Source: a virus. Taken from it: DNA of 45,817 nt. The notes under the pieces were generated by a model. The model had not been told where the DNA came from. It made no database searches and saw only the letters and a list, made by a program, of their open reading frames with translations. The DNA lies in IMG/VR virus record IMGVR_UViG_3300036832_000526, positions 1 to 45,817 of that record. One strand, written 5' to 3'. A program made the translations under genes and the position numbers. This document shows, one piece after another, positions 3,305 through 45,806 of the stretch (position 1 is the first letter of the stretch; each line of letters starts with the position of its first letter).

Positions 3305-3530
3305 ACCTAAGCTTCCTCGGCTTTCGCAGCCTTCGCCTGATCGCCACTGGCGCTGCACCATGCCAGTAGCAGCGTTGACATCCAGTGACAGCGATTGCGT
3401 AGCACGGTGTCCCATCCGCCTTCGTCACCATACAGCGACGTCGATTGATGTTGTGTCGCTGACACTGAACCATTCTTGCTGCAGCCTTGAACGCAATGTT
3501 CCCTGCCTGTGGCTGTGCCGCTCTCCTCAT
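3261..3530 (-). CDS. Cys/His zinc-binding-like phage protein, possibly frameshifted
   Basis: ATG 3530 has a strong ribosome binding site (GAGGAGATCAGCGG). The protein contains RRCMVTKADGTPCYAIAV, then TGCQRCYWHGAAP, which matches the C-x(n)-G-PC-x(n)-G--RC--HGG pattern of small phage proteins believed to bind zinc. As read, the frame overlaps the next gene by 44 bases and ends in a basic tail. A shift after HGAA into another frame gives SGDQAKAAKAEEA and a TAG two bases before the next ATG, a much more natural end. See findings. Function unknown. Confidence 0.55.
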   Translation of the reverse strand: MRRAAQPQAGNIAFKAAARMVQCQRHNINRRRCMVTKADGTPCYAIAVTGCQRCYWHGAAPVAIRRRLRKPRKLRYAAWTDNKASRADR

Positions 3531-3563
3531 CCGCTGATCTCCTCAAGTTCCAAGGTTGGTATT

Positions 3564-3610
3564 GGCCGACGAATTACACCCCCTAGGGGGGGTGTGTAAT
3601 ATCGTCGGCC
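3564..3610. repeat. Long near-perfect inverted repeat between operon genes
   Basis: GGCCGACGA (3564-3572) pairs perfectly with TCGTCGGCC (3602-3610). Inside, ATTACAC followed by C-runs pairs with G-runs followed by GTGTAAT, allowing for a bulge of two to three bases. The hairpin lies 20 bases downstream of the ATPase stop and 34 bases before the next gene. There is no U-tract on either side, so it is not a standard intrinsic terminator. It could be an RNA processing or stability element, a replication-related palindrome or a protein site. Confidence 0.6.
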
Positions 3611-3629
3611 GTAAATACTGCCGACAAAA

Positions 3630-4844
3630 TCATTTCGTCGCCTGCTGTCGGCTGCTGTCGGCGTCCATTCGCCAAACAAAATCGTCGCCATTATCAAACC
3701 GATAGCTCCCCACAATTCCCGACGATTTCATCTGTCGCATGGTTCGCGTGAAATTAGTCTGTAGCGTGTCATCACTCACTCCAGTTGTACCCGCCCGACG
3801 AAAATAGTTTTGTCGGCAAGAGTGGCCCGGTACCGCGAATATTCTCGCTCCGTTCACGGTGATGTGCTGACCGAGCCCCTCATCGTAGCAGTCGCTGATC
3901 GCCAGCAGCAGCTCCGACAATCGCTTCGACTTGCGCCCGGGCACATGATCGCTGCGCGCGACACCGTCGAGCCACGCGATGCGGACTGATGTGATTGCAT
4001 CTCCATCACTATCGACGCCGCGCTTGACCACACTGAGCTTAAACCCAACCTCGGCACCACCCTCACCGTCGCGCACCTTGTCGACAAACATCGTACGGTT
4101 CTCGCCCTCACCAACCGCAATCCGCATGATGCTGTCGGCGGCATCGTATTTTGCCGACCCACCACGCGGCCTTGTTGCGTTCTCATCCTTCGGTAAATGG
4201 TCCGTGGTGAGCGCAAACAGACCCGCTGGCTGTGCGATGCGGTCGAGCGTCTGAAACGCCGCTGTGCACTGCGCGTTGTCGTTTTCATCCTTGAAGCCCG
4301 CGATCTTGGCCAGCGTGTCGAACACCGCCAGCACCACCGGCACCTTGAACTTTTTCTCGAACACGCTCGCTGCCTCGGCAATTGCGTCGCTATACCATTT
4401 GATTGCTTCATCAATTTTCGGCAGCAGCGGCGGCATCTCGGTGATCAGTGCGAACGGGAACTCAGTTGGCATGCGCTCCTCGTACTGCTCGAACCACGGC
4501 TTGATCACCAAATCCTTCACCGCGTGCCATGAGCGCATGACACCGAGCCCGCCTTCGGCCGAGAAATAGATCACGCCGCCCGGCCGCATCACGCGCGCAC
4601 CGCCCCAGTTGCGCTCAGTGACCACGGCCCAACTGAGGTCGACCAAGGCCTGCGTCTTGCCGGTGTAGCCACGCCCGATGAGCGCGCCGACGCCGGTCGA
4701 GGCTAATCGGTTCTTCACCAGCCAGCCGATGTTACTGTTGAGCGGTTCCCACTCGTAGCGCAGTGCCCGCGCTCCACCGCGCCCGTTCGGGCGGATCGGC
4801 ACCACCTTGGGCTCATGCGGCACGCCGGGATACTCGTCAGCCAT
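3630..4844 (-). CDS. RepA-like AAA ATPase, replication helicase/loader type
   Basis: Encodes 404 residues from ATG 4844, with GGGGAGG upstream; the TTG at 4850 is also in frame but has worse spacing. A Walker A motif is clear (GRGYTGKT, about residues 57-64), followed by a Walker B-like strand (VVLAVFD, about 170-176) and a THD-LPKDE / RPRGGSAK segment typical of the RecA-like AAA_25 (RepA/DnaB-type) family. Phages often pair such ATPases with a CHC2/Toprim primase, and here the primase gene lies directly upstream and overlaps by 8 bases. The likely role is helicase or helicase-loader at phage replication forks. The C-terminal 100 residues may be a DNA-binding winged-helix region. Confidence 0.8.
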   Translation of the reverse strand: MADEYPGVPHEPKVVPIRPNGRGGARALRYEWEPLNSNIGWLVKNRLASTGVGALIGRGYTGKTQALVDLSWAVVTERNWGGARVMRPGGVIYFSAEGGLGVMRSWHAVKDLVIKPWFEQYEERMPTEFPFALITEMPPLLPKIDEAIKWYSDAIAEAASVFEKKFKVPVVLAVFDTLAKIAGFKDENDNAQCTAAFQTLDRIAQPAGLFALTTDHLPKDENATRPRGGSAKYDAADSIMRIAVGEGENRTMFVDKVRDGEGGAEVGFKLSVVKRGVDSDGDAITSVRIAWLDGVARSDHVPGRKSKRLSELLLAISDCYDEGLGQHITVNGARIFAVPGHSCRQNYFRRAGTTGVSDDTLQTNFTRTMRQMKSSGIVGSYRFDNGDDFVWRMDADSSRQQATK

Positions 4845-7658: not shown

Positions 7659-8077
7659 GCCGCCACCCGCACGCGCAGCGCGCCCCAGACCTTCAGCGTG
7701 TCGATGGCGTCCTTGTAATTGTCGTGGAAAGCGTAGGGGTAACCGTTGACTGCGCACCAGATTGCGAACGCGCGCTGCCAGTCGGTGAGCGTCTTGCCCT
7801 GCTTCTTCAGCTCAAGGAAATGCGCGCCGCCTTCCGGTGCCAGTAGGATGAAATCGGGCCAGCCGACCTGCACGCCCATGCGCTTGAGCCGCATCGCGGT
7901 GCTGGGATGACGCCACTCACCAGCCGGGAAATGCGACCAGCGCCACCCCGGCGTCTGCCAGCGGCGCAGCGTATCGGCCACCATGACGTGCGTGTTGTAC
8001 TCGGGTGCTGCGGGTGCTTTCACACCACGCTGGCGCTTGCTCTTGAATAGGCTGAGCTGTCCCGGCATTGATCTCAC
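7655..8077 (-). CDS. VRR-NUC domain nuclease
   Basis: Encodes 140 residues from GTG 8077, which overlaps the upstream TGA (GTGA); ATG 8068 is an equally possible start. The catalytic pattern is clear: GWPDFILLAPEGGAHFLELK holds the Asp of the first strand and the E-x-K (ELK) of the second, followed by LTDWQRAFAIWCAVNGYPYA. VRR-NUC proteins are small PD-(D/E)XK nucleases common in phages, thought to act on branched or flapped DNA during replication or repair. The residue pattern and length fit an active single-domain phage enzyme. Confidence 0.85.
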   Translation of the reverse strand: MRSMPGQLSLFKSKRQRGVKAPAAPEYNTHVMVADTLRRWQTPGWRWSHFPAGEWRHPSTAMRLKRMGVQVGWPDFILLAPEGGAHFLELKKQGKTLTDWQRAFAIWCAVNGYPYAFHDNYKDAIDTLKVWGALRVRVAA

Positions 8078-8310
8078 GCCGCATCGGCATTCTGTTGTTC
8101 GACCTCTTCAAACTGAAACAGAGAGCGTGCGGCCTCGCAGCCGCGCGCCTCCAGCTTGTGCGCAATCACAAAATAAACCTTGGGCGGGAAAAATCCGCGT
8201 GCGCGCCAGTTCCACACATTCTGCGGCGAGCGTTTGGTCAACGCCGCCATCTTTGCAATGCCGCCGAGTTCTTTCTCGACGGCAGCGAAGCTCGTCAGTC
8301 GTTTTGTCAT
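8074..8310 (-). CDS. Cro-like helix-turn-helix regulator
   Basis: Encodes 78 residues from ATG 8310. The helix-turn-helix FAAVEKELGGIAKMAALTKR, then SPQNVWNWRARGFFPPKVYF, resembles the Cro/CII-like or YdaS-like small regulators of alphaproteobacterial phages. It is the first gene of the reverse-strand replication operon and faces the control region at 8311-8684, so it probably binds the repeats or palindrome there and sets the early or lysogenic switch. No clear Shine-Dalgarno precedes the ATG, which may mean a leaderless or weakly translated message. Confidence 0.75.
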   Translation of the reverse strand: MTKRLTSFAAVEKELGGIAKMAALTKRSPQNVWNWRARGFFPPKVYFVIAHKLEARGCEAARSLFQFEEVEQQNADAA

Positions 8311-8352
8311 GAGCGGCAGCGTATGCAAACTCAAAAACAAAAATCAAATTTG

Positions 8353-14097: not shown

Positions 14098-14311
14098 CCA
14101 AGCACTCGGTGGTGCGTACACAATCAAAGAGTTCTGCAGAGCGCACCGCATCTCGGAGGGGCTGTACTACAAAATGCAAAACGCGGGCGAAGGCCCGCGC
14201 GTAATGGAGGTCGGCACCAGACGGCTGATCTCGCAGGAGGCTGCGGCTGCGTGGCGGCGAGCCCGGGAAAGCTCGCCGCCCACCGTGCCGTCAGGCGGCG
14301 ATGTCGGGTAG
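14087..14311 (+). CDS. AlpA/Xis-like HTH protein, candidate excisionase
   Basis: Encodes 74 residues from ATG 14087 with GAGG upstream. The helix-turn-helix (YTIKEFCRAHRISEGLYYKM) and wing (GPRVMEVGTRRLISQEAAAA) are typical of small AlpA-like or excisionase proteins: the motif pattern YTI-EFC-AHRIS---YY---GxGPRVM-VGxR-LIS matches proteins I know beside alphaproteobacterial integrases. It ends tail to tail with the integrase gene, overlapping by 21 bases, so the pair probably controls integration and excision. Candidate binding repeats lie in the attP region at 15646-15717. Confidence 0.75.
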   Translation: MTTDQALGGAYTIKEFCRAHRISEGLYYKMQNAGEGPRVMEVGTRRLISQEAAAAWRRARESSPPTVPSGGDVG

Positions 14312-15559
14312 CGAATTGCGCAGCAGATCGTCAGCGTGATCGGTGATGTGGACGCTGTAGTTTTTCTCGATCATCGCAACACTGGTGTCGTGGCTGGCAG
14401 CGACAATGCGCGTCGGCACACTCCGCAGGAGCCGGTTCACAATCGAGGTGTGGCGGAATGCGTAGATTGTGATGCCGCGCCCGGCGCAGCCCGCAGCCTT
14501 CACCGCACGCCGGAACGGGCGGCTGTGATCTGACTTGCCCCACGGCTCGCCGCTCGCCTTCACCAGCAACCGCTCAGTCGGCTTGCGGTCTGCAGCCGCC
14601 GTCACGAGCGCACGGTAGAGTTTGGCCGAGATCGGCGTGGCGATATGCGTGACCTTCTTTTTGCCCCTGCCCTTGCGCGACACCGGCATCATCAGGAGCG
14701 GCCGGTTATCACCGCCCTGCAGATTTGCGATCAGGAGGTTAGCCGCTTGAGAGATCGGGCGTGCGCCGCTCTCGGCGCAAACGTGGGCCAGAAGGCCGAT
14801 GTCGTTACCCTCGACGTAGCAGCAGTCGACAATGGCACTCACGTCATTGGGGTCGTCGATGATGACGTTGCGCGCCTTGTTGCTATCCTCGATGGTGCCA
14901 AGGCCGACCTCCCACTGGTGCCGGTTGAGGCCATCGTCGGAGAGGTCAGCGGTGCGGTTGAGCGCCGCCTTGAGCGTGGCGCAAAGGCGATTGATGGTCG
15001 CAGGCGAGAGCGGTTCTACACCTTTGATCTCCTCAGCCTTGCCCTTCATGTAGCGACCGCGCGCTGACTGCTCGTCGCGCCATTTGCGCCAGTCGGTTTT
15101 CTTCACCAGCTTGATCGCCGTAGCGAGGAAGGCGGCGGTCATCGACTTGCGGATGCGGACCACCTCGCCAGTGCCTTTGCCAGCCCGCCTGAGATCGGCC
15201 TCATAGCCTTCGAGCGACTGCTTCACCGTAGTCAGGTTGCCAGAGGGTGGGCCGCTGCTGGGGCCGCTCTCGTCGCCGCTCGCCAGCTTGCGCGCACGCG
15301 CGGTGGCTTGGTCGTAGGTGAAGATCGTGTCGTTGTTGGCGTCCTGATAGTCATCGGCGCGGCCGATGGCGCGGTGCGTGTTCGACTGCTTGCCGTCAGC
15401 AACCCGCAGCACCCATGCGCCGTCAACCTGCGCTTTCGGTTTGCGGTAGCCGAGACTGAGGCCCTGCCCGATGCGAACAAAGTACGGCTTGCGGCGCGCG
15501 TCGAGCTGCAGGCGCTGCGTGCGTGTTTCGATTTCTGATGAGCGGATTTTGCGTGCCAT
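14291..15559 (-). CDS. int: Tyrosine-type phage integrase
   Basis: Encodes 422 residues. The catalytic domain shows Arg267 in CAESGARPISQ, Lys candidates near 296-302 (RKGRGKKK), the box II arginine in YAFRHTSI (Arg369), His390 in AASHDTS and the nucleophile Tyr401 in EKNYSVH. The usual HxxR histidine of box II is Tyr366 here. The N-terminal 100 residues form a DUF4102-like or arm-binding region, followed by a SAM-like core-binding domain at about 110-205. It inserts the phage at a tRNA-Glu site (see attP). The ATG at 15559 lies four bases from the first of a set of arm-type repeats, so the protein may repress its own gene. Confidence 0.9.
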   Translation of the reverse strand: MARKIRSSEIETRTQRLQLDARRKPYFVRIGQGLSLGYRKPKAQVDGAWVLRVADGKQSNTHRAIGRADDYQDANNDTIFTYDQATARARKLASGDESGPSSGPPSGNLTTVKQSLEGYEADLRRAGKGTGEVVRIRKSMTAAFLATAIKLVKKTDWRKWRDEQSARGRYMKGKAEEIKGVEPLSPATINRLCATLKAALNRTADLSDDGLNRHQWEVGLGTIEDSNKARNVIIDDPNDVSAIVDCCYVEGNDIGLLAHVCAESGARPISQAANLLIANLQGGDNRPLLMMPVSRKGRGKKKVTHIATPISAKLYRALVTAAADRKPTERLLVKASGEPWGKSDHSRPFRRAVKAAGCAGRGITIYAFRHTSIVNRLLRSVPTRIVAASHDTSVAMIEKNYSVHITDHADDLLRNSLPDIAA

Positions 15560-15913: not shown

Positions 15914-16288
15914 TCAGCGCCCGCGCGCCTCCAGCTTCTCGCAGACCTCGTGCGCGCCCTTGAGCGCGTCCTCAAGGCTCGCGCCGTAGTCGCAGATCAC
16001 CTCCCAGCTATCGTTGCCGTACACGAAGCGCACGAAGCTGTTTTTGCAGCCCTCCTTGAACGTGTAGAGGTAGTCCTCGTCGGTGGTCATCAGCGCGTCG
16101 ACGATCTGCTTGAATTTCGTCGACTTGATCACGGTCTCTTCCTCGCCGTCGAACACGCTAAGCGAGTAGCCCGCCGCCAGCAGGTCACGCACCACCCGGC
16201 GCGCCACGCGCTTCTCGCCTGCGATGCGCTTGCGGTTGGCGGCGATCTCCCGGGCGCGTTCCGGGGTCATTTCGTTCGATAACTGCAT
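15914..16288 (-). CDS. 124-residue protein of unknown function, divergent from serine recombinase
   Basis: Encodes 124 residues from ATG 16288 with AGGAAGGA upstream. The N-terminus is a very basic helix (ERAREIAANRKRIAGEKRVA, RRVVRDLLAAG), followed by an alternating region (YSLSVFDGEEETVIKSTKFK) and a C-terminal mixed region (LYTFKEGCKNSFVRFVYGND). I recognise it only as a small hypothetical protein type in alphaproteobacterial mobile elements. It has its own consensus promoter with an operator in the spacer and its own terminator, so it is a one-gene unit expressed separately from the phage operons. This resembles a lysogenic-conversion or moron gene, which is inference. Confidence 0.65.
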   Translation of the reverse strand: MQLSNEMTPERAREIAANRKRIAGEKRVARRVVRDLLAAGYSLSVFDGEEETVIKSTKFKQIVDALMTTDEDYLYTFKEGCKNSFVRFVYGNDSWEVICDYGASLEDALKGAHEVCEKLEARGR

Positions 16289-16313: not shown

Positions 16314-16343
16314 AATATAGGGGCCATTGGCCGGGGGTGTCAA
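16314..16343 (-). promoter_or_regulatory. Consensus promoter for the 15914-16288 gene
   Basis: On the - strand TTGACA (16343-16338) and TATATT (16319-16314) are 18 bases apart, a near-perfect sigma-70 promoter. One GGCCATTGGCC operator (16322-16332) lies inside the spacer. Confidence 0.8.
16322..16332. promoter_or_regulatory. Operator copy 1, GGCCA-T-TGGCC
   Basis: Perfect inverted repeat with five-base arms around one base, placed between the -10 and -35 boxes of the reverse promoter. A protein bound here would block RNA polymerase. Same motif as the copies at 16355, 16377, 17570 and 18042. Confidence 0.7.
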
Positions 16344-16354
16344 TATGGAACCTC

Positions 16355-16367
16355 GGGCCAATGGCCC
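16355..16367. promoter_or_regulatory. Operator copy 2, GGGCCAATGGCCC
   Basis: Six-base arms around a central A. It ends at the base before the -35 hexamer of the serine recombinase promoter (16368). Its centre is 22 bases from copy 3, about two helical turns. Confidence 0.7.
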
Positions 16368-16396
16368 TTGCGGCCGGGGCCAATGGCCCGTATATT
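16368..16396 (+). promoter_or_regulatory. Promoter of the serine recombinase operon
   Basis: TTGCGG (16368-16373), 17 bases, TATATT (16391-16396). It is divergent from the promoter at 16314-16343. Operator copy 3 fills the spacer and copy 2 abuts the -35 box. Confidence 0.75.
16377..16389. promoter_or_regulatory. Operator copy 3, GGGCCAATGGCCC
   Basis: Identical to copy 2 and located between the -35 and -10 boxes of the serine recombinase promoter, the classic position for steric repression. Confidence 0.7.
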
Positions 16397-16423
16397 GTGG
16401 GCACATCAGAATAGGACCCCAAA

Positions 16424-17065
16424 ATGAGATCGCTGATTGCCTACTACCGCGTATCTACCCAGCAGCAAGGCCGCTCCGGCCTTGGGCTCGACGCGCAGCG
16501 CGCCGCCATCGCGGCCTTTGCTGCGGCCGAAGGCCTGCAGATCGCTGGCGAGTTCACCGAGATCGAGACCGGCAAAGGTGCCGACGCGCTCGACCGCCGC
16601 CCGCAGCTCGCTGCCGCGCTCAAGGCGGCAAAGAAGGCGAAGGCTGCGGTGTGCGTGGCCAAGCTGGACCGTTTGTCACGCGACGTCGCCTTCATCGCCA
16701 CGCTGATGGTGCAGAAGGTGCCGTTCATTGTGGCGGCTCTCGGCCGGGACGCCGACCCGTTCATGCTGCACATCTACGCGGCGTTGGCTGAGCAGGAGCG
16801 CCGCATGATCTCAGAGCGCACCAAGGCGGGCCTCGCGCAGGCCAAGCGCCGGGGTGTGCGGCTGGGCAACAGCAAACAGGCCGAGATCAATGCCGATGCA
16901 GCACAGGCATTCGCTGAAGCACTGCGCCCCGAGATCGAGCCAATCCGCAATCTGTCGGCCACGCGCATCGCGCACATCCTCAACGACCGCAAGATCGCCA
17001 CGCCGACCGGCGCGCGCTGGTCAGCCAAGACCGTCATCCGCGTACAAGAAAGGCTCGCAGCATGA
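16424..17065 (+). CDS. Serine recombinase (resolvase/invertase family)
   Basis: Encodes 213 residues from ATG 16424. The N-terminal catalytic domain has [20 protein letters not shown] with nucleophile Ser11 and Arg9, then the KLDRLSRD motif (Asp82, Arg83, Arg86) and the linker helix region [20 protein letters not shown]. The C-terminal part ([32 protein letters not shown]) is the small HTH found in resolvase-type enzymes of alphaproteobacterial elements. It is much shorter than large serine integrases. Substrate sites are not obvious; the palindromes upstream are more likely operators. Roles could include multimer resolution, inversion or regulation of its own region. Confidence 0.9.
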
Positions 17066-17277
17066 TGTCGTCTGACCAATATCAGCGCGCGCTGGCGCGG
17101 CTCGATCTGTCCATTGCACGCGCGGCCGTGCTGCTCGACGTTGACCGGCGCACATCCGAGCGCTGGGCGAGCGGCGACCGCGACGTGCCCGGCCCAGTAG
17201 GGCGCTTCCTCACCTATCTGCTCTCGACCGGAAAATCCGGCGAGAGCGTCATCAAAAAACTGGAGACCAAAAAATGA
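17062..17277 (+). CDS. Small HTH phage protein
   Basis: Encodes 71 residues from ATG 17062 (ATGA overlap with the recombinase). The helix-turn-helix [20 protein letters not shown], then [20 protein letters not shown], is the short type with an RRTSxRWxxGxRxVPGPVxxxL ending, common in alphaproteobacterial phages and plasmids. It is a good candidate for the protein binding the five GGGCCA-N-TGGCCC operators around it, because it is co-transcribed from a promoter carrying two of them. That link is inference. Confidence 0.75.
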
Positions 17278-17549
17278 TGTGGGTTGTTTTGTTTCTTGGC
17301 GTTGCGTTTCTCGCGATCATCTCGCCCGGGTTTCGCATTCTCGCTTTCATCGGCGTGGTCGTGTTGGGCGGCGGCTTGCTGTGGCAGATGCACGTCGACA
17401 ATACGCAGGCTGCAGCGTGGCTGCAGCGCGCCCAAACCGGCACCGCAGAGGACGCAGGCAATTGGCTGCTCGTGCATCAAGATGCAAACCCTAACGAGCG
17501 CGCGTTGGTGGTAAAGCGCTATATGGAGCTGCAGCCAAAATCACGGTAA
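17274..17549 (+). CDS. Small membrane protein
   Basis: Encodes 91 residues from ATG 17274 (ATGA overlap). The first 45 residues form two closely spaced hydrophobic segments (VVLFLGVAFLAIISPGF and ILAFIGVVVLGGGLLWQM). The remainder is soluble (NTQAAAWLQRAQTGTAEDAG, NWLLVHQDANPNERALVVKR). It is the last gene of the recombinase operon, and a terminator follows at 17595. No family is recognised; inner-membrane location is likely. Confidence 0.65.
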   Translation: MMWVVLFLGVAFLAIISPGFRILAFIGVVVLGGGLLWQMHVDNTQAAAWLQRAQTGTAEDAGNWLLVHQDANPNERALVVKRYMELQPKSR

Positions 17550-17562
17550 GCGCAGCACACGC

Positions 17563-17591
17563 TTGACCGGGCCATTGGCCTGATCAAAACT
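17563..17591 (+). promoter_or_regulatory. Possible promoter with operator copy 4 in its spacer
   Basis: TTGACC (17563-17568) is followed by GGCCATTGGCC (17570-17580) and a weak -10 candidate AAAACT (17586-17591). The arrangement copies the two promoters at 16.3 kb. A terminator lies directly downstream (17595-17621), before the next gene at 17632. Confidence 0.5.
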
Positions 17592-17594
17592 GAG

Positions 17595-17621
17595 CGCCGC
17601 CCTCGGGCGGCGTTTTCTTTT
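17595..17621 (+). terminator. Intrinsic terminator after the recombinase operon
   Basis: Stem CGCCGCCC / GGGCGGCG (17595-17602 and 17605-17612) with a two-base gap at the tip, followed by TTTTCTTTT (17613-17621). It ends the recombinase-HTH-membrane transcript and lies only ten bases before the ATG of the next gene. Confidence 0.8.
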
Positions 17622-17631
17622 GGAGCGCATC

Positions 17632-17841
17632 ATGCCAGTCAAAATTTGCACGATTGCCACCGTGCCCGACAGCCTCACGAATGCGTGGCTGCAGCATCTG
17701 CGCGACTTTGATACCGCGCACGCGGATTGCCATTTTGAGGTGATGGCAGAAGCGCCCGACATGAGCATGCAGGACATCATCGAAGCCATCACGATTAACC
17801 CGCACCTTGGTTTTGTCGATTTCATGAAGCGCAAGCCCTGA
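17632..17841 (+). CDS. Small hypothetical protein
   Basis: Encodes 69 residues from ATG 17632; GGAG (17622-17625) sits six bases upstream, directly after the terminator T-tract. The sequence MPVKICTIATVPDSLTNAWL, then QHLRDFDTAHADCHFEVMAE, has an alpha/beta look and resembles small phage proteins with a WLQHLRDFD segment. A transcript reaching it must either pass the terminator or begin inside it, so expression may depend on read-through or antitermination. Function unknown. Confidence 0.6.
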   Translation: MPVKICTIATVPDSLTNAWLQHLRDFDTAHADCHFEVMAEAPDMSMQDIIEAITINPHLGFVDFMKRKP

Positions 17842-18152
17842 TCTCAACCGGCGCGAGCGCACACAACCTCGGCTCAGAAAAAATATTTTCTCAAGGACTT
17901 AGCGGCAGGTTTCGACTGACACTGCTCGCGAATTTGGTTTGGGTTGTAGTCGAGATGTACCAGTGTTTTCGTAATTTCCATTTTCAAAAAGTTTGAATTT
18001 CGTTAGCGCGATCAAACAGCGCAGCACCCAAAAACGACCACGGGCCAATGGCCCCTCGCGATCTGTGGTAGACTGTGTCTGTCAGTCAAAGACGGCTGGC
18101 GCGGGCACGTCGCCCGGGTTCTTTGAAAATCAAATCAGACAGGAGAATGCCA
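17842..18152. other. Intergenic AT-rich control region
   Basis: This 311-base gap holds no convincing gene. It has an AT-rich stretch at about 17875-18010, a small stem GAAAA/TTTTC near 17880, operator copy 5 at 18042-18054, a possible -10 box TAGACT (18069-18074) without a good -35 box, and a CGGGC/GCCCG stem at about 18102-18116. It is probably the promoter region of the 18153 gene. Confidence 0.5.
18042..18054. promoter_or_regulatory. Operator copy 5, GGGCCAATGGCCC
   Basis: Identical to copies 2 and 3. It overlaps the position expected for the -35 region of the promoter whose -10 candidate is TAGACT at 18069, so the 18153 gene probably belongs to the same regulon. Confidence 0.65.
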
Positions 18153-18474: not shown

Positions 18475-18825
18475 ATGCAAAACGTAACGCAAAAACTGGA
18501 AGGCGTCGAGACCAGCATGCGCCGCTGGCACACCCGGCTCACCCGGGCGAGCAACATGCTGCACAAGCTGGAGCGGCAGCGCCGCAGGCTTCAGCAGCAG
18601 GGCCAGACCACCGGCACCGCAAAGCCGAAGGTCTCAACCATCGACGTCGATGAGGTGAAGCGGCAGCTCGATGCTGCCATCGACACCACCATCCCGCCTC
18701 TTCTCAAGCGCGATGTCGATGTCGACAGGCTCAAGGCCGAGCGCGTGGCCAAGGTCGACAAGAGCAAGATGCCACTCACCGGGCGCGCCGCGCTCGATGC
18801 GATCAGGCCGAAGAAGAAGGCCTGA
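18475..18825 (+). CDS. Basic coiled-coil-like hypothetical protein
   Basis: Encodes 116 residues from ATG 18475 with AAAGGAG upstream. The first half is a long, heavily charged helix (MRRWHTRLTRASNMLHKLER, QRRRLQQQGQ) likely to form a coiled coil. The second half includes VDEVKRQLDAAIDTTIPPLL and ends in a lysine-rich tail (IRPKKKA). A DNA- or RNA-binding role would fit the charge, but there is no known domain. It is the last + gene before the late operon's end and is followed by a bidirectional terminator. Confidence 0.6.
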   Translation: MQNVTQKLEGVETSMRRWHTRLTRASNMLHKLERQRRRLQQQGQTTGTAKPKVSTIDVDEVKRQLDAAIDTTIPPLLKRDVDVDRLKAERVAKVDKSKMPLTGRAALDAIRPKKKA

Positions 18826-32148: not shown

Positions 32149-34452
32149 TCAGCCGCCCGGAGGCGGTGGTCCACCGGCAGCGCCGGGCGGCGGCGTGCCT
32201 GTCATCTGGCCGGTCATATCGGGCGGTCCTGCCGGTGGCTGCATGCCGGGCCGTGCCGAATTGTTGGCACCCTGCGGTCCTTGCAGTGCGCCCGGTGGCG
32301 CGCCGGTTCCGCCAGCTTGCCCGCGTATCATGCCGTTCATTGCGACGATTGACGGGAGCTGTGACTTGAACGCCTGCGTGAGATCGAGACGGTCGTCGAG
32401 CCGACGCAGCAGGTCTTTCGCCAAAAATTCCGGGTCGATGCCGGGCAATTGGATAAGCAGCGGGTAGACGCGCTGCGCATTCGCGATCTCCTGCGCGGCG
32501 TTCGGCCGACCCATCGAACCGGCCTCGATCTCCAGCAACACCTCGTTGGCGATGTCCTGCGCGGAGAATTGCGGCCACACGGCACCGACACCGACGATCT
32601 TTTGAACTTGCTCTTTCGACACCTCGGACAGCAGCATCTGGCCACCATTGCGCGCGAGCTGCGTGAGCATGTCGTTGAGATCGTCGATGTTCGAGCCCAT
32701 CGACGTCATGCGCGAACCTTCGGCAATGTTGGCCTGCGTGGCGGTCGCCTCGGACGTGCCACCCAAATTGGCTTCCTGAATGCCGGTGGCGCGCAGAATG
32801 TCCTCGTAGACCGGATTGACCTCGTACAGGTTGGGGTCGATGCCCGGGCCGGAATAGGCCTGCAGCAGGTTCTTGATGTCCTGATTGGGCTGCAGTGCGT
32901 TCAGCTCGACGATGGCGTTGGCCTCGCGCTCACTGAGTTTTTCGAGGTCCTCCTCCTCCATCGTCCCGGCCACAATGGCGGTGAACGGTCGCGCCGCAAT
33001 GCGCTGCTCCTTGAGACCTTCACGGCAGCGGTTGTATTCGCGCTGCATGTCCTTCATCAGCCGCACATCGGACGGCGGGAAGATTTCGGTCTCGTGATCG
33101 GCCTCGTTGAACACGAGCGGGTACCACGGCCAGAAGCGCTCGTTGTAGATTTCAGGGGCTGCGGGCTCGCGCAGGAAATCGCCGTAGCCGTCACAGATTG
33201 TGTAAACGAGACCATCCTTGCGGCAGTAGATGTCCCACACGCAGCCAAAATCATATTGCTTGTCGGCCGCGCGCCCGCCTTCCGACCACTGATAACCGGC
33301 GAGCATTTCGCGTGCCATCTGCGTCGGGTCGGGGCCGCGCAGGTTGTCCCAGATCGTGTACGAATTATAATCGCTGCCGACATCGACACCGTAGATTTCC
33401 TCGATGTCGTTTTTGCTCAGCATGTACTGCTCAGCGACGTACTCGGCCCCGAGAAAATTGCGCAGCTCGACCGTCTTGACGTCAGGGATGATGTTGGTCG
33501 ACAGCGGGTAATCGAACGTCAGACCCTCGCGCGTGACAAACTCAACCGTCTGCGACAGGTCGTTGATCAGCAACCGCAACTGTTCGGCTTCCTTGCTATC
33601 CTCGTCGGTGATGTCGTCGGCCATGTCGGCCGCGAGCCGCTCCAGCGTTGCGAGCTTCTCGCTGGCTTCAGCGATGCCCCTCTCCATGTCGGGGCGCTTA
33701 TCCATCACGCGCTCAAACCCGAGCTTGACGTAGCCGACGCCGGTCGTCACCGCGCGCCGCACGACCATCTTCATCATCGCTTTGAACGGGTGAACCTGCT
33801 GGTCGACGTTGTAGGCGTAGAGCAGCTCCAGCGTCTGCCCGAGCTTGTCGAGCATCACGTTTTCCTGCTTGACGCGCAGCGCATCCTGCATGATCGCCAT
33901 GCCCTGCTGCGCGGCCTGCATCAGCATCGGGCTCTGCATGCCAGCGCCCATCAGCGCGCCGGGCGCGCCGCCGCCGCCCATCGGCATGCCGGGAGGGCCG
34001 CTCTGCGCGATTTGCGCTGCCATCATGCCGCCAGATGCGACGAGCTGTTGCAGCGTCGATTGGCTCTCATCCCAGAGGGTGGCATTGAGCCGCTCGCGTC
34101 TGCGCGCCACGGCCTTCGGATTTTTTGCGTACAGAAATGCGGTTTTCTGCGCGACCAGCCGCAGTGTCAGATTGGCAACGTAGCGCGTGTCAGCATCGTT
34201 CTTCGACCACTGTCGTCCGTAGCAAAAATCCTGATCTTCGCGCATGCGCTTGAATGCTTTATCCCAGTGCGTGCGTGCCGACTTGATGCGGCTTGTCCAC
34301 GCCGAGACCAGCGCCTTGCGCTTGTCGGTCGGGTCAGGGTCATCGCGCGGAATGACATCCTTTTCCTTGCCGGTCAGCGCCGCCATCAAACCAGAGCCAG
34401 CGTTCTCATCGACGCCCGGCGTGGTGCCACCATCGGTGATGTCTAGAGCCAT
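32149..34452 (-). CDS. Portal protein (podovirus head-tail connector)
   Basis: Encodes 767 residues from ATG 34452, overlapping the terminase stop by ten bases. Recognisable parts are AFKRMREDQDFCYGRQW, TLRLVAQKTAFLYAKNPKAV and the long helical middle, then RLMKDMQREYNRCREGLKEQ and ATGIQEANLGGTSEATATQA. The C-terminus is Pro/Gly/Ala-rich and disordered (GMQPPAGPPDMTGQMTG). Portals of this size and pattern form the dodecameric ring at one capsid vertex through which DNA is packaged. Gene order terminase-portal-scaffold-capsid supports it. Confidence 0.85.
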   Translation of the reverse strand: MALDITDGGTTPGVDENAGSGLMAALTGKEKDVIPRDDPDPTDKRKALVSAWTSRIKSARTHWDKAFKRMREDQDFCYGRQWSKNDADTRYVANLTLRLVAQKTAFLYAKNPKAVARRRERLNATLWDESQSTLQQLVASGGMMAAQIAQSGPPGMPMGGGGAPGALMGAGMQSPMLMQAAQQGMAIMQDALRVKQENVMLDKLGQTLELLYAYNVDQQVHPFKAMMKMVVRRAVTTGVGYVKLGFERVMDKRPDMERGIAEASEKLATLERLAADMADDITDEDSKEAEQLRLLINDLSQTVEFVTREGLTFDYPLSTNIIPDVKTVELRNFLGAEYVAEQYMLSKNDIEEIYGVDVGSDYNSYTIWDNLRGPDPTQMAREMLAGYQWSEGGRAADKQYDFGCVWDIYCRKDGLVYTICDGYGDFLREPAAPEIYNERFWPWYPLVFNEADHETEIFPPSDVRLMKDMQREYNRCREGLKEQRIAARPFTAIVAGTMEEEDLEKLSEREANAIVELNALQPNQDIKNLLQAYSGPGIDPNLYEVNPVYEDILRATGIQEANLGGTSEATATQANIAEGSRMTSMGSNIDDLNDMLTQLARNGGQMLLSEVSKEQVQKIVGVGAVWPQFSAQDIANEVLLEIEAGSMGRPNAAQEIANAQRVYPLLIQLPGIDPEFLAKDLLRRLDDRLDLTQAFKSQLPSIVAMNGMIRGQAGGTGAPPGALQGPQGANNSARPGMQPPAGPPDMTGQMTGTPPPGAAGGPPPPGG

Positions 34453-36008
34453 CCGTTGAGGCTCCTTTTGATTTTGTCGAGCCCTTCACGCCGTTGCGTT
34501 TGCTCGATCATCGATCTGAACGTGCCCGCTTTGACCTCAGCCTTCTGCGGACGCTGATGCGAACGCGGTCGCATTTTTGTGAGACCGAGCCCGACCAGCG
34601 AGAGCGTGTCGACAAAATCGTCCTTGTTGCCCATCGGGAATTTTAAAATCTGGTCCTGCGCATCCGGCCACCAGCGGCACCAACCGGGAAAATGAACCAT
34701 CTTCATCGCGCTGCGTGCCTGAATGGCTTGCGCGCGCTGCTGCTTGTCATGTGCGGGAGTGATCGGGTCCATTGCGCAAAAGACGCGCTTCTCCAGCATG
34801 CGCTTGCGCAAAAACGGGCCGATGCTTTTGGCGATTGAGCCCTGTTCGGCCCACCAAAATTGCGGCTTATATTTTTCGATCAAGGCGACCATGCTCTCGA
34901 CTGCGGCGTGACTATCGAGCCGCATCCAAACGACGTCTGGCATGATCCAAAGGTGATCGGCGGTATCGACACCGACGACCATCAGGCAGGTTTTATCGCC
35001 TTTTTGGTTCAACGTCACGGCATGATCTGATGCCGCGTAGAAACGCATCTCCTCGTAGGCGGGCAGGTCCCGCATCGAGTTGTAGGTGATCAGGTCCTCG
35101 GCGCGGAAAAACGCGCCTTCGCGCGGCGCAGGCCTGCCCTGATAGAGCGCCATGAAACCGCGTGGGTCGGTCGAGCGGATTTCCTCAAGGAACTCTTTGT
35201 CGAAGCGCTCCGGCCACAACGCCTCGCCCTCGGCACGGCCGAGAATGTCGTTGTCCTCGGCCAGCGCTGGCAGATCGATCTTGTGCCAGTTGCGCGCCTC
35301 GTCGATGTTGTAGAACGGATTGAGCGGGTCGGTGAGCCGACCGATGAGATCGTCCTCGGTCCATTGCGTGGTGATCAGCACAATGGTGCCGGTCTTGTTC
35401 ATCAACCGGGTGCGCAGCACCTGATTGTACCATTGCCACAGATTGTCGCGGATGGTCGGGCTGTCGGCTTCTTTGCGGTCCTTGATCGGGTCGTCCAGCA
35501 CGATGAGATGCGCGCCACGGCCGGTGATGGCAGAGCCACGACCGACGCAGAAGATCACGCCGCCTTCGGTCGTTTCGATACGATTGACTGCGGCAGAGCG
35601 CTGTTTGATTTGCAGCTCTGGAAAGACCTGCTGGTAGGCGCTCGACAGCATGATGTCGCGAATGCCACGGCCCAAATCCCATGAGTAGGCCTCGTTGTAA
35701 GTTGCAACGATGATCGAATGGCTGGGGTGTCGGCCCGCGTACCATGCCGGAAACATTTTTGCCGACAGGGTCGTCTTGCCGAAGCGCGGGCCGAGCTTGA
35801 TGATTAGGCGGCGGAATTTGCGCGCCTCGACCTCCTCAAGGCCCGCACCCATCACGCGATGAAATTTCTGCGGCGAATAAAGCGAGAAGGCCGCGTCATC
35901 CGCCGCATCAGGGTCTGGCATCATCAGGCATGTGAAATCGATCAAGTTGTCGCGAGCCTTCAGGATCGCGCGCTTGCGTTTCAGCAGAATGAGATGCCGG
36001 TTGCTCAT
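34443..36008 (-). CDS. terL: Large terminase subunit, packaging ATPase and nuclease
   Basis: Encodes 521 residues from ATG 36008 (TGATG junction). The ATPase half has Walker A GPRFGKTT (residues 73-80), Walker B LIVLDDP (168-174) and the coupling motif LITTQW (about 211-216). The C-terminal RNase H-like nuclease shows candidate acidic residues in AASDHAVTL (Asp328), WWAEQGSIAKS (Glu388) and NKDDFVDTLS (Asp463/464 and Asp467). It cuts concatemers and drives DNA into the head through the portal encoded next. No recognisable small subunit gene is adjacent. Confidence 0.9.
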   Translation of the reverse strand: MSNRHLILLKRKRAILKARDNLIDFTCLMMPDPDAADDAAFSLYSPQKFHRVMGAGLEEVEARKFRRLIIKLGPRFGKTTLSAKMFPAWYAGRHPSHSIIVATYNEAYSWDLGRGIRDIMLSSAYQQVFPELQIKQRSAAVNRIETTEGGVIFCVGRGSAITGRGAHLIVLDDPIKDRKEADSPTIRDNLWQWYNQVLRTRLMNKTGTIVLITTQWTEDDLIGRLTDPLNPFYNIDEARNWHKIDLPALAEDNDILGRAEGEALWPERFDKEFLEEIRSTDPRGFMALYQGRPAPREGAFFRAEDLITYNSMRDLPAYEEMRFYAASDHAVTLNQKGDKTCLMVVGVDTADHLWIMPDVVWMRLDSHAAVESMVALIEKYKPQFWWAEQGSIAKSIGPFLRKRMLEKRVFCAMDPITPAHDKQQRAQAIQARSAMKMVHFPGWCRWWPDAQDQILKFPMGNKDDFVDTLSLVGLGLTKMRPRSHQRPQKAEVKAGTFRSMIEQTQRREGLDKIKRSLNGWL

Positions 36009-45425: not shown

Positions 45426-45806
45426 ATGATGGTATCCGCACGATCAAAGACCGACCGCAACAACGACACGGCGGTCGGTGCGCGCGTTCGCGCGCTGCGC
45501 ATCCAGCGCAAGATGTCGCAGGAAAAACTCGGTGACGCGCTGGGGCTCACGTTCCAGCAGGTGCAGAAATACGAGAAAGGCACCAACCGCATCTCGGCCT
45601 CGCGGCTGATCGCCATCTCGAAAATCCTCAAGGTGCCGGTGGTCCACCTTCTCGGTGAGGACGCGCTGGGCAACAAGATCGAGGTCGATACCAACGTCGA
45701 TAGCCGCCAGCGCGTGCGAATTTTCGAGCTGCTGGAAAAACTCAAAAACCCCAAAGCGGAACAGATCGTCATCAACCTGCTGGAGGTCCTCGGCAGCAAT
45801 AGGTGA
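45426..45806 (+). CDS. XRE-family transcriptional regulator, CI-like candidate
   Basis: Encodes 126 residues from ATG 45426; ATG 45429 is possible. A classic helix-turn-helix is present: GARVRALRIQRKMSQEKLGD, ALGLTFQQVQKYEKGTNRIS, ASRLIAISKILKVPVVHLL. The C-terminus (RIFELLEKLKNPKAEQIVIN) is a helical dimerisation-type tail rather than a LexA-like peptidase. The family is common in alphaproteobacteria and their phages. It is a candidate lysogeny repressor, but its position at the far end from the 8.3-8.6 kb control region leaves the target open. The stop overlaps a GTG (45803) that may start the gene truncated at base 1 if the genome is circular. Confidence 0.8.
   Translation: MMVSARSKTDRNNDTAVGARVRALRIQRKMSQEKLGDALGLTFQQVQKYEKGTNRISASRLIAISKILKVPVVHLLGEDALGNKIEVDTNVDSRQRVRIFELLEKLKNPKAEQIVINLLEVLGSNR

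Follow-up and report, generated by a model that had tools for sequence, protein, structure and literature searches.

Gene content of the locus

The DNA analysed here (the window, 45,817 nucleotides) is the record of a temperate tailed phage, with an integrase gene (14291-15559) beside a tRNA-like attP core and genes for a portal protein (32149-34452) and a terminase (34443-36008). A block of small genes accompanied by operators is located between attP and the late genes, as was proposed in the initial annotation, which described a small accessory regulon at this position. The block contains the following genes and signals:

15914-16288, minus strand: 124-aa protein, function unassigned
16424-17065, plus strand: small serine recombinase with a Resolvase domain, 213 aa
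17062-17277, plus strand: 71-aa helix-turn-helix (HTH) protein, probable repressor; overlaps the recombinase stop
17274-17549, plus strand: 91-aa membrane protein, final gene ahead of the terminator
17592-17615, plus strand: terminator of the recombinase-HTH-membrane protein operon
17632-17841, plus strand: 69-aa protein, 50% identical to the ORF downstream of the HTH gene in L069
18153-18413, plus strand: 86-aa protein; its gene follows the O5 promoter and a structured leader that is conserved
18475-18825, plus strand: 116-aa protein; its counterpart downstream of the equivalent L095 operator shares 43% identity

Relatives of the recombinase with 84, 74 and 75% identity are encoded in the loci L004, L005 and L069, respectively. 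All three loci keep two divergent operators ahead of the recombinase gene and carry extra operator copies upstream of a small gene, behind which lies a tyrosine integrase gene; in L004 the product of this small gene is HTH_17-like, in L005 the resemblance is weak, and in L069 there is no Pfam match. The 124-aa protein has a homologue (57% identity) at the same place in L004, and an unrelated gene occupies that place in L005 and L069. The constant partner of the operator across these relatives is the HTH gene. In L069, the same phage has, besides the normal HTH gene, another copy that has diverged (3307-3636) and is preceded by a separate pair of variant operators GGCCACTGGCC. Since the relatives derive from a Bradyrhizobium prophage and a Boseongicola MAG, the Alphaproteobacteria are suggested as the host group.

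Operator sites and promoters

The 11-bp sequence GGCCAWTGGCC, a perfect palindrome around one unpaired base, has five exact copies in the whole 45.8-kb record, starting at 16322, 16356, 16378, 17570 and 18043. All five are intergenic and clustered in 1.73 kb, which bears out the earlier claim of five palindromes outside genes, and the scan of the whole record found no exact copy outside the module. The full 13-mer GGGCCANTGGCCC is perfect at 16355, 16377 and 18042 only, with one mismatch each at 16321 and 17569. In 200 dinucleotide shuffles of the window, the 11-bp sequence occurred 0.11 times on average and at most twice; because some 11-bp palindrome reached at least five copies in 16 of these shuffles, the copy count alone is unconvincing, and conviction rests on the tight clustering, the positions in the gaps and the conservation of the sites. 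The sites and the promoters around them are:

16314-16343, minus strand (16343 to 16314): promoter P_L, TTGACA-18-TATATT, drives the 124-aa gene
16321-16333: O1, inside the P_L spacer, one mismatch to the 13-mer
16355-16367, no strand: O2, GGGCCAATGGCCC, abuts the -35 box of P_R; present in the window only
16368-16396, plus strand: promoter P_R, TTGCGG-17-TATATT, drives the recombinase, HTH and membrane protein genes
16377-16389: O3, inside the P_R spacer, perfect 13-mer
17569-17581, no strand: O4, operator-like, one mismatch, just before the terminator; role doubtful
18042-18054: O5, covering the -35 position in a promoter of the extended -10 type, perfect 13-mer
18042-18074, plus strand: O5 together with its promoter, extended -10 element TAGACT at 18069-18074

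The initial annotation had placed the first and third sites in the spacers of two divergent near-consensus promoters. Both placements hold; the -35 box of P_R in the window (TTGCGG) is poor and matches the consensus at three of six positions, and the corresponding box is TTGACN in L004, L005, L069 and L095. The layout of P_L is the same in L004 and L095, where the arrangement of O5 over the -35 position and a leader is also conserved. The overlap of the fifth copy with a -35 region and the contact of the second copy with a -35 box (that of P_R) were likewise described correctly. A third promoter at the fourth copy was not supported: its putative elements (TTGACC ... AAAACT) are weak and the terminator follows directly, and O4 is therefore not counted as a promoter operator. 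O2 and O4 have no counterparts in the relatives, and both are unexplained. The proposal of one dedicated repressor over a small regulon was largely right, with operators inside promoters, except for the promoter at site 4.

Association of the operator with the HTH gene

A single-sequence search of viral contigs with the HTH protein gave no confirmed relatives, and a search with a five-sequence alignment gave 27 viral loci. The operator GGCCANTGGCC lies within about 1.1 kb of the HTH gene in 14 of the 15 contigs with a close HTH relative (the window and L084-L097), and the majority of these operator-bearing contigs have no recombinase nearby; L089, which has a close HTH relative, contains no exact operator. 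The recombinase loci without the HTH gene carry the operator in one case of 37 (L137), kilobases away from the recombinase.

The reverse search, in which the promoter-operator pattern TTGACN6GGCCAWTGGCCYTAT was run across 2.9 million viral contigs, matched 27 contigs, 25 of which encode an HTH protein of this family, the sequences in both linkage tests being related and the contigs thus not fully independent. The HTH gene is found at a median distance of 373 bp from the pattern and, in 21 contigs, downstream on the same strand; the two contigs without it break off no more than 0.3 and 0.7 kb from the promoter. Among control loci of similar total length, mostly chance double sites, the HTH gene was present in 2 of 24. 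The controls came from a scan for two close operator copies, whose 28 stretches served only as a control set, many of them representing tandem repeats or chance matches rich in GGCC (L111, L112, L118, L121, L138).

The earlier list of candidate repressors named the HTH protein, the 124-aa protein and the recombinase, and a search for the operator with the neighbouring gene set in other genomes had been proposed. The operator recurs with the HTH gene, often where the recombinase is absent, and this linkage points to the 71-aa HTH protein as the probable cognate regulator. The 124-aa protein was rejected, as an unrelated gene replaces it in L005 and L069, where the operator is kept. The recombinase was rejected as the operator binder as well; it is absent beside the operator in most relatives, and its similarity does not track that of the operator.

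That the serine recombinase might bind the palindromes as res-like or crossover sites and regulate its own gene is nonetheless worth weighing, given that its gene adjoins O3 and that resolvases repress at their own sites. The sites of such a system follow the recombinase, whereas here the operator follows the HTH gene, persists with it where no recombinase is nearby, and does not track the recombinase once the HTH protein is accounted for. No convincing invertible segment for the recombinase was found in the window either, and we consider this explanation very unlikely.

The palindromes might also belong to a regulator of the host, the phage imitating the promoters of that regulator, and the module promoters do resemble good host sigma-70 promoters. 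In 385 Alphaproteobacteria genomes searched with one mismatch allowed, however, the pattern has a single match, with one mismatch, as against its close association with a phage gene among the viral contigs; the pattern is therefore not a host promoter motif, and a host origin of the sites appears extremely unlikely. A profile search of the same genomes with the HTH family gave 11 weak matches, and the only site in the loci retrieved around them was the already known one in L139. The pair of site and predicted repressor recurs in dozens of uncultured phages, ahead of small uncharacterised genes.

Co-diversification of operators and HTH proteins

The succession of a recombinase gene and a small HTH gene recurs, and in more distant pairs the promoter slot is occupied by other palindromes, e.g., TAGGCANCCATTGCCTA, ATAGGAAACCATTTCCTAT, CGGGCATTATGCCCG and AGGGTGAAATACCCT; the operator is TAGGCA...TGCCTA in L050 and AGGGT...ACCCT in L072. 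Palindromes in the spacer slot were detected in 18 of 74 upstream regions, as compared with 1.5% of shuffled segments and 3 of 51 downstream controls. Across 19 recombinase-HTH modules, operator similarity correlated with HTH similarity after removal of the recombinase contribution (partial r 0.66, permutation p 0.0002, a value that is a guide and not proof because the loci are related and their operators were chosen by eye from upstream regions and the spacer scan). In the same modules, the correlation of the operator with the recombinase after removal of the HTH contribution was near zero (partial r 0.05, p 0.29). This is what should be expected if the HTH protein and the operator form a cognate repressor-operator pair. 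Another family of spacer palindromes (TCCAATTTATTTGGA) is located upstream of the recombinase in L008, L013 and L019, with no HTH partner detected downstream.

Operator types that diversify between phages are also reminiscent of immunity types, and in L004, L005 and L069 the operator is additionally found upstream of the integrase and of the small gene whose L004 version is HTH_17-like. The HTH protein could accordingly be the main lysis-lysogeny repressor in a CI/Cro role, with the sites as immunity operators. We regard this assignment as quite unlikely, since other proteins encoded in the window are candidates for that role, the exact sites are confined to the module, and the HTH protein is without a separate dimerisation or cleavage domain. 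The three further HTH genes in the window, 45426-45806 (Cro/C1 type), 700-939 and 8074-8340, are likely the main phage regulators.

Comparison with known repressor families

The structural model of the 71-aa HTH protein has five helices (pLDDT 95.9), and its best fold matches include Aca2 (Z 9.6), MqsA (9.3), HigA2 (9.3), Aca10 (8.9) and Aca1 (8.0); because the XRE-type MqsA and HigA2 score as high, the Aca-like fold does not single out Aca proteins. The model superimposes on Aca10 with 1.4 A over 55 residues. Aca10 is also the best PDB match of the HTH sequence profile, with an E value of 0.0011 over 37 residues, which any XRE-type HTH could reach.

Aca10 from Pseudomonas citronellolis (PDB 7XI5) recognises a minimal 19-bp palindrome, ATACGCTCA-T-TGAGCGTAT, that overlaps its promoter, and a change of its R44 abolishes binding (PMC9410881). 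R44 aligns with R40 of the present protein, which is invariant in the HTH alignment. The operator consensus of the relatives, ATAGGGCCA-A-TGGCCCTAT, of which the 13-bp core is retained in the window copies while their ends vary more, resembles the Aca10 site in its length, single central base, CA-N-TG centre, ATA ends and position over the -35/-10 region. In contrast, the two proteins share about 22% identity, the half-site is ATAGGGCCA here and ATACGCTCA in Aca10, the co-operonic genes encode a recombinase and uncharacterised proteins instead of acrIC6/7, and several promoters per phage carry the site.

A similar geometry is known for the AcrIF24 operon, whose promoter TTGCAT-N17-TATAGT contains a 17-bp inverted repeat, which consists of two 8-bp half-sites separated by 1 bp and lies almost exactly between the -35 and -10 boxes (PMC9638941). 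An inverted repeat fills the same gap here, although AcrIF24 is a larger, dual Acr-Aca protein with another operator sequence. All tested Aca families repress via a repeat in the core promoter, and Aca1 and Aca2, which share the HTH fold with the present protein, use inverted repeats of the acr promoter for this purpose (PMC9410906); their sequences and operators differ from those described here, and Aca2 has an extra dimerisation domain.

The protein analysed here is likewise a small HTH protein (71 aa, with Aca2, Aca10 and Aca1 among its best fold matches), with an inverted repeat in its own core promoter (O3 in P_R, and 25 of the 27 pattern contigs). In the relatives without a recombinase, the operon consists of the promoter, one to three small proteins and the HTH gene, which by analogy is the layout of acr-aca operons. 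The claim that the module is not a described system therefore needs correcting: its design, with the operator in the core promoter, small genes and a co-operonic HTH gene, is that of Aca autorepressors. None of the 24 co-operonic or divergent small proteins of the relatives gave a match to a known Acr family in Pfam, NCBIfam, PHROGs or PADLOC, and membership of the Aca group is not claimed for this reason. By sequence, model and analogy, the HTH protein probably works like an Aca, with no recognised anti-CRISPR gene beside it.

The MqsA and HigA2 antitoxins, which match the HTH fold as well as the Aca proteins do, raise the alternative that the protein is the antitoxin half of a toxin-antitoxin pair autorepressing its operon, a behaviour common to Aca proteins and antitoxins (PMC9410906). 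The HTH partners are dozens of unrelated small proteins, in the window a recombinase, and a single antitoxin serving so many unrelated toxins would be odd. Among the 24 small proteins (two divergent neighbours included), the only clear Pfam match is LPD29; there is one weak PHROG toxin match and no conserved partner of the HTH protein. An antitoxin role seems unlikely on these grounds.

The operator strings were not found in the phage and bacterial regulation literature searched, which likewise describes neither how widely this operator occurs nor its deployment at genes for recombinases and integrases.

Leader elements and neighbouring genes

A GGGC-N6-GCCC element or near variant is located between the -10 box and the first start codon in 20 relatives. 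It follows directly after the operator promoter, adjoining the first gene's ribosome-binding site, in L086 (2090-2140) and is at the same place in L087, L088, L090-L093, L131, L139, L166, L168, L178, L182, L183, L186, L189 and L190. In the L086-L093 type, the outer stem of the leader hairpin extends to the ribosome-binding site. No covariation was detected in the 5' hairpin across the 20 loci, and with its core nearly invariant, an RNA structure and a conserved second DNA site look the same. The element is absent at P_R and P_L of the window, and O5 is followed by a different structured element with a GGGC-N5-GCCC hairpin. The latter is part of a long leader that is both structured and conserved, UGUCAG ... 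CUGACAGGAG; this leader contains two hairpins and precedes the gene downstream of O5 (18076-18150 in the window, 6600-6680 in L004 and 6420-6500 in L095). Rfam gave no match in the window or in the leaders tested. Aca2 reportedly binds both RNA and DNA.

Across the operator from the HTH operon, several relatives carry a divergent gene for a C5 cytosine DNA methyltransferase (PF00145) on the minus strand (L086 1217-2068, L088 2454-4085, L090 3125-4417), which is a candidate anti-restriction function. L131 (IMGVR_UViG_2824205890_000003) is a phage-like region with an LPD29-domain gene and an HTH relative, with operator pairs on both sides; its isolate-style record number makes it a possible cultivable test system.

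Proposed regulatory mechanism and its implications

We propose, with a probability of roughly 0.85 judged from sequence and structural modelling, that the 71-aa HTH protein is an Aca-like autorepressor that binds the palindrome as a dimer and controls the module promoters. The dimer would contact a core of 13-17 bp, (TA)GGGCCAWTGGCCC(TA). At P_R and P_L, the bound dimer would exclude RNA polymerase because the site fills the gap between the -35 and -10 boxes, and at O5 it would cover the -35 region. Early after infection, the promoters, still free of repressor, would be active, and the HTH protein would build up from the recombinase-HTH operon until it shut off that operon together with the divergent 124-aa gene and the genes behind O5. 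The control logic of the Aca type would here act on a serine recombinase and small proteins, and in the relatives also on an excisionase-like gene and a tyrosine integrase. More tentatively, the repressor may represent an Aca-type family of alphaproteobacterial phages whose regulon has extended past anti-defence genes to recombinase, excisionase-like and integrase genes of the phage itself, many relatives perhaps combining DNA control with RNA control through the hairpin.

If this reading is true, the 26-base pattern TTGAC-N6-GGCCAWTGGCC-YTAT finds operons run by this HTH repressor. The pattern already points to about two dozen small phage proteins, which would be natural anti-defence candidates in Alphaproteobacteria, a class for which a regulator of this kind is not named in the literature searched. 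With repressor and operator varying in concert in a fixed promoter slot, the recombinase-HTH modules would provide a natural series for the DNA-recognition code of Aca-like proteins. The finding further suggests that one such switch would time phage recombination as well as defence evasion.
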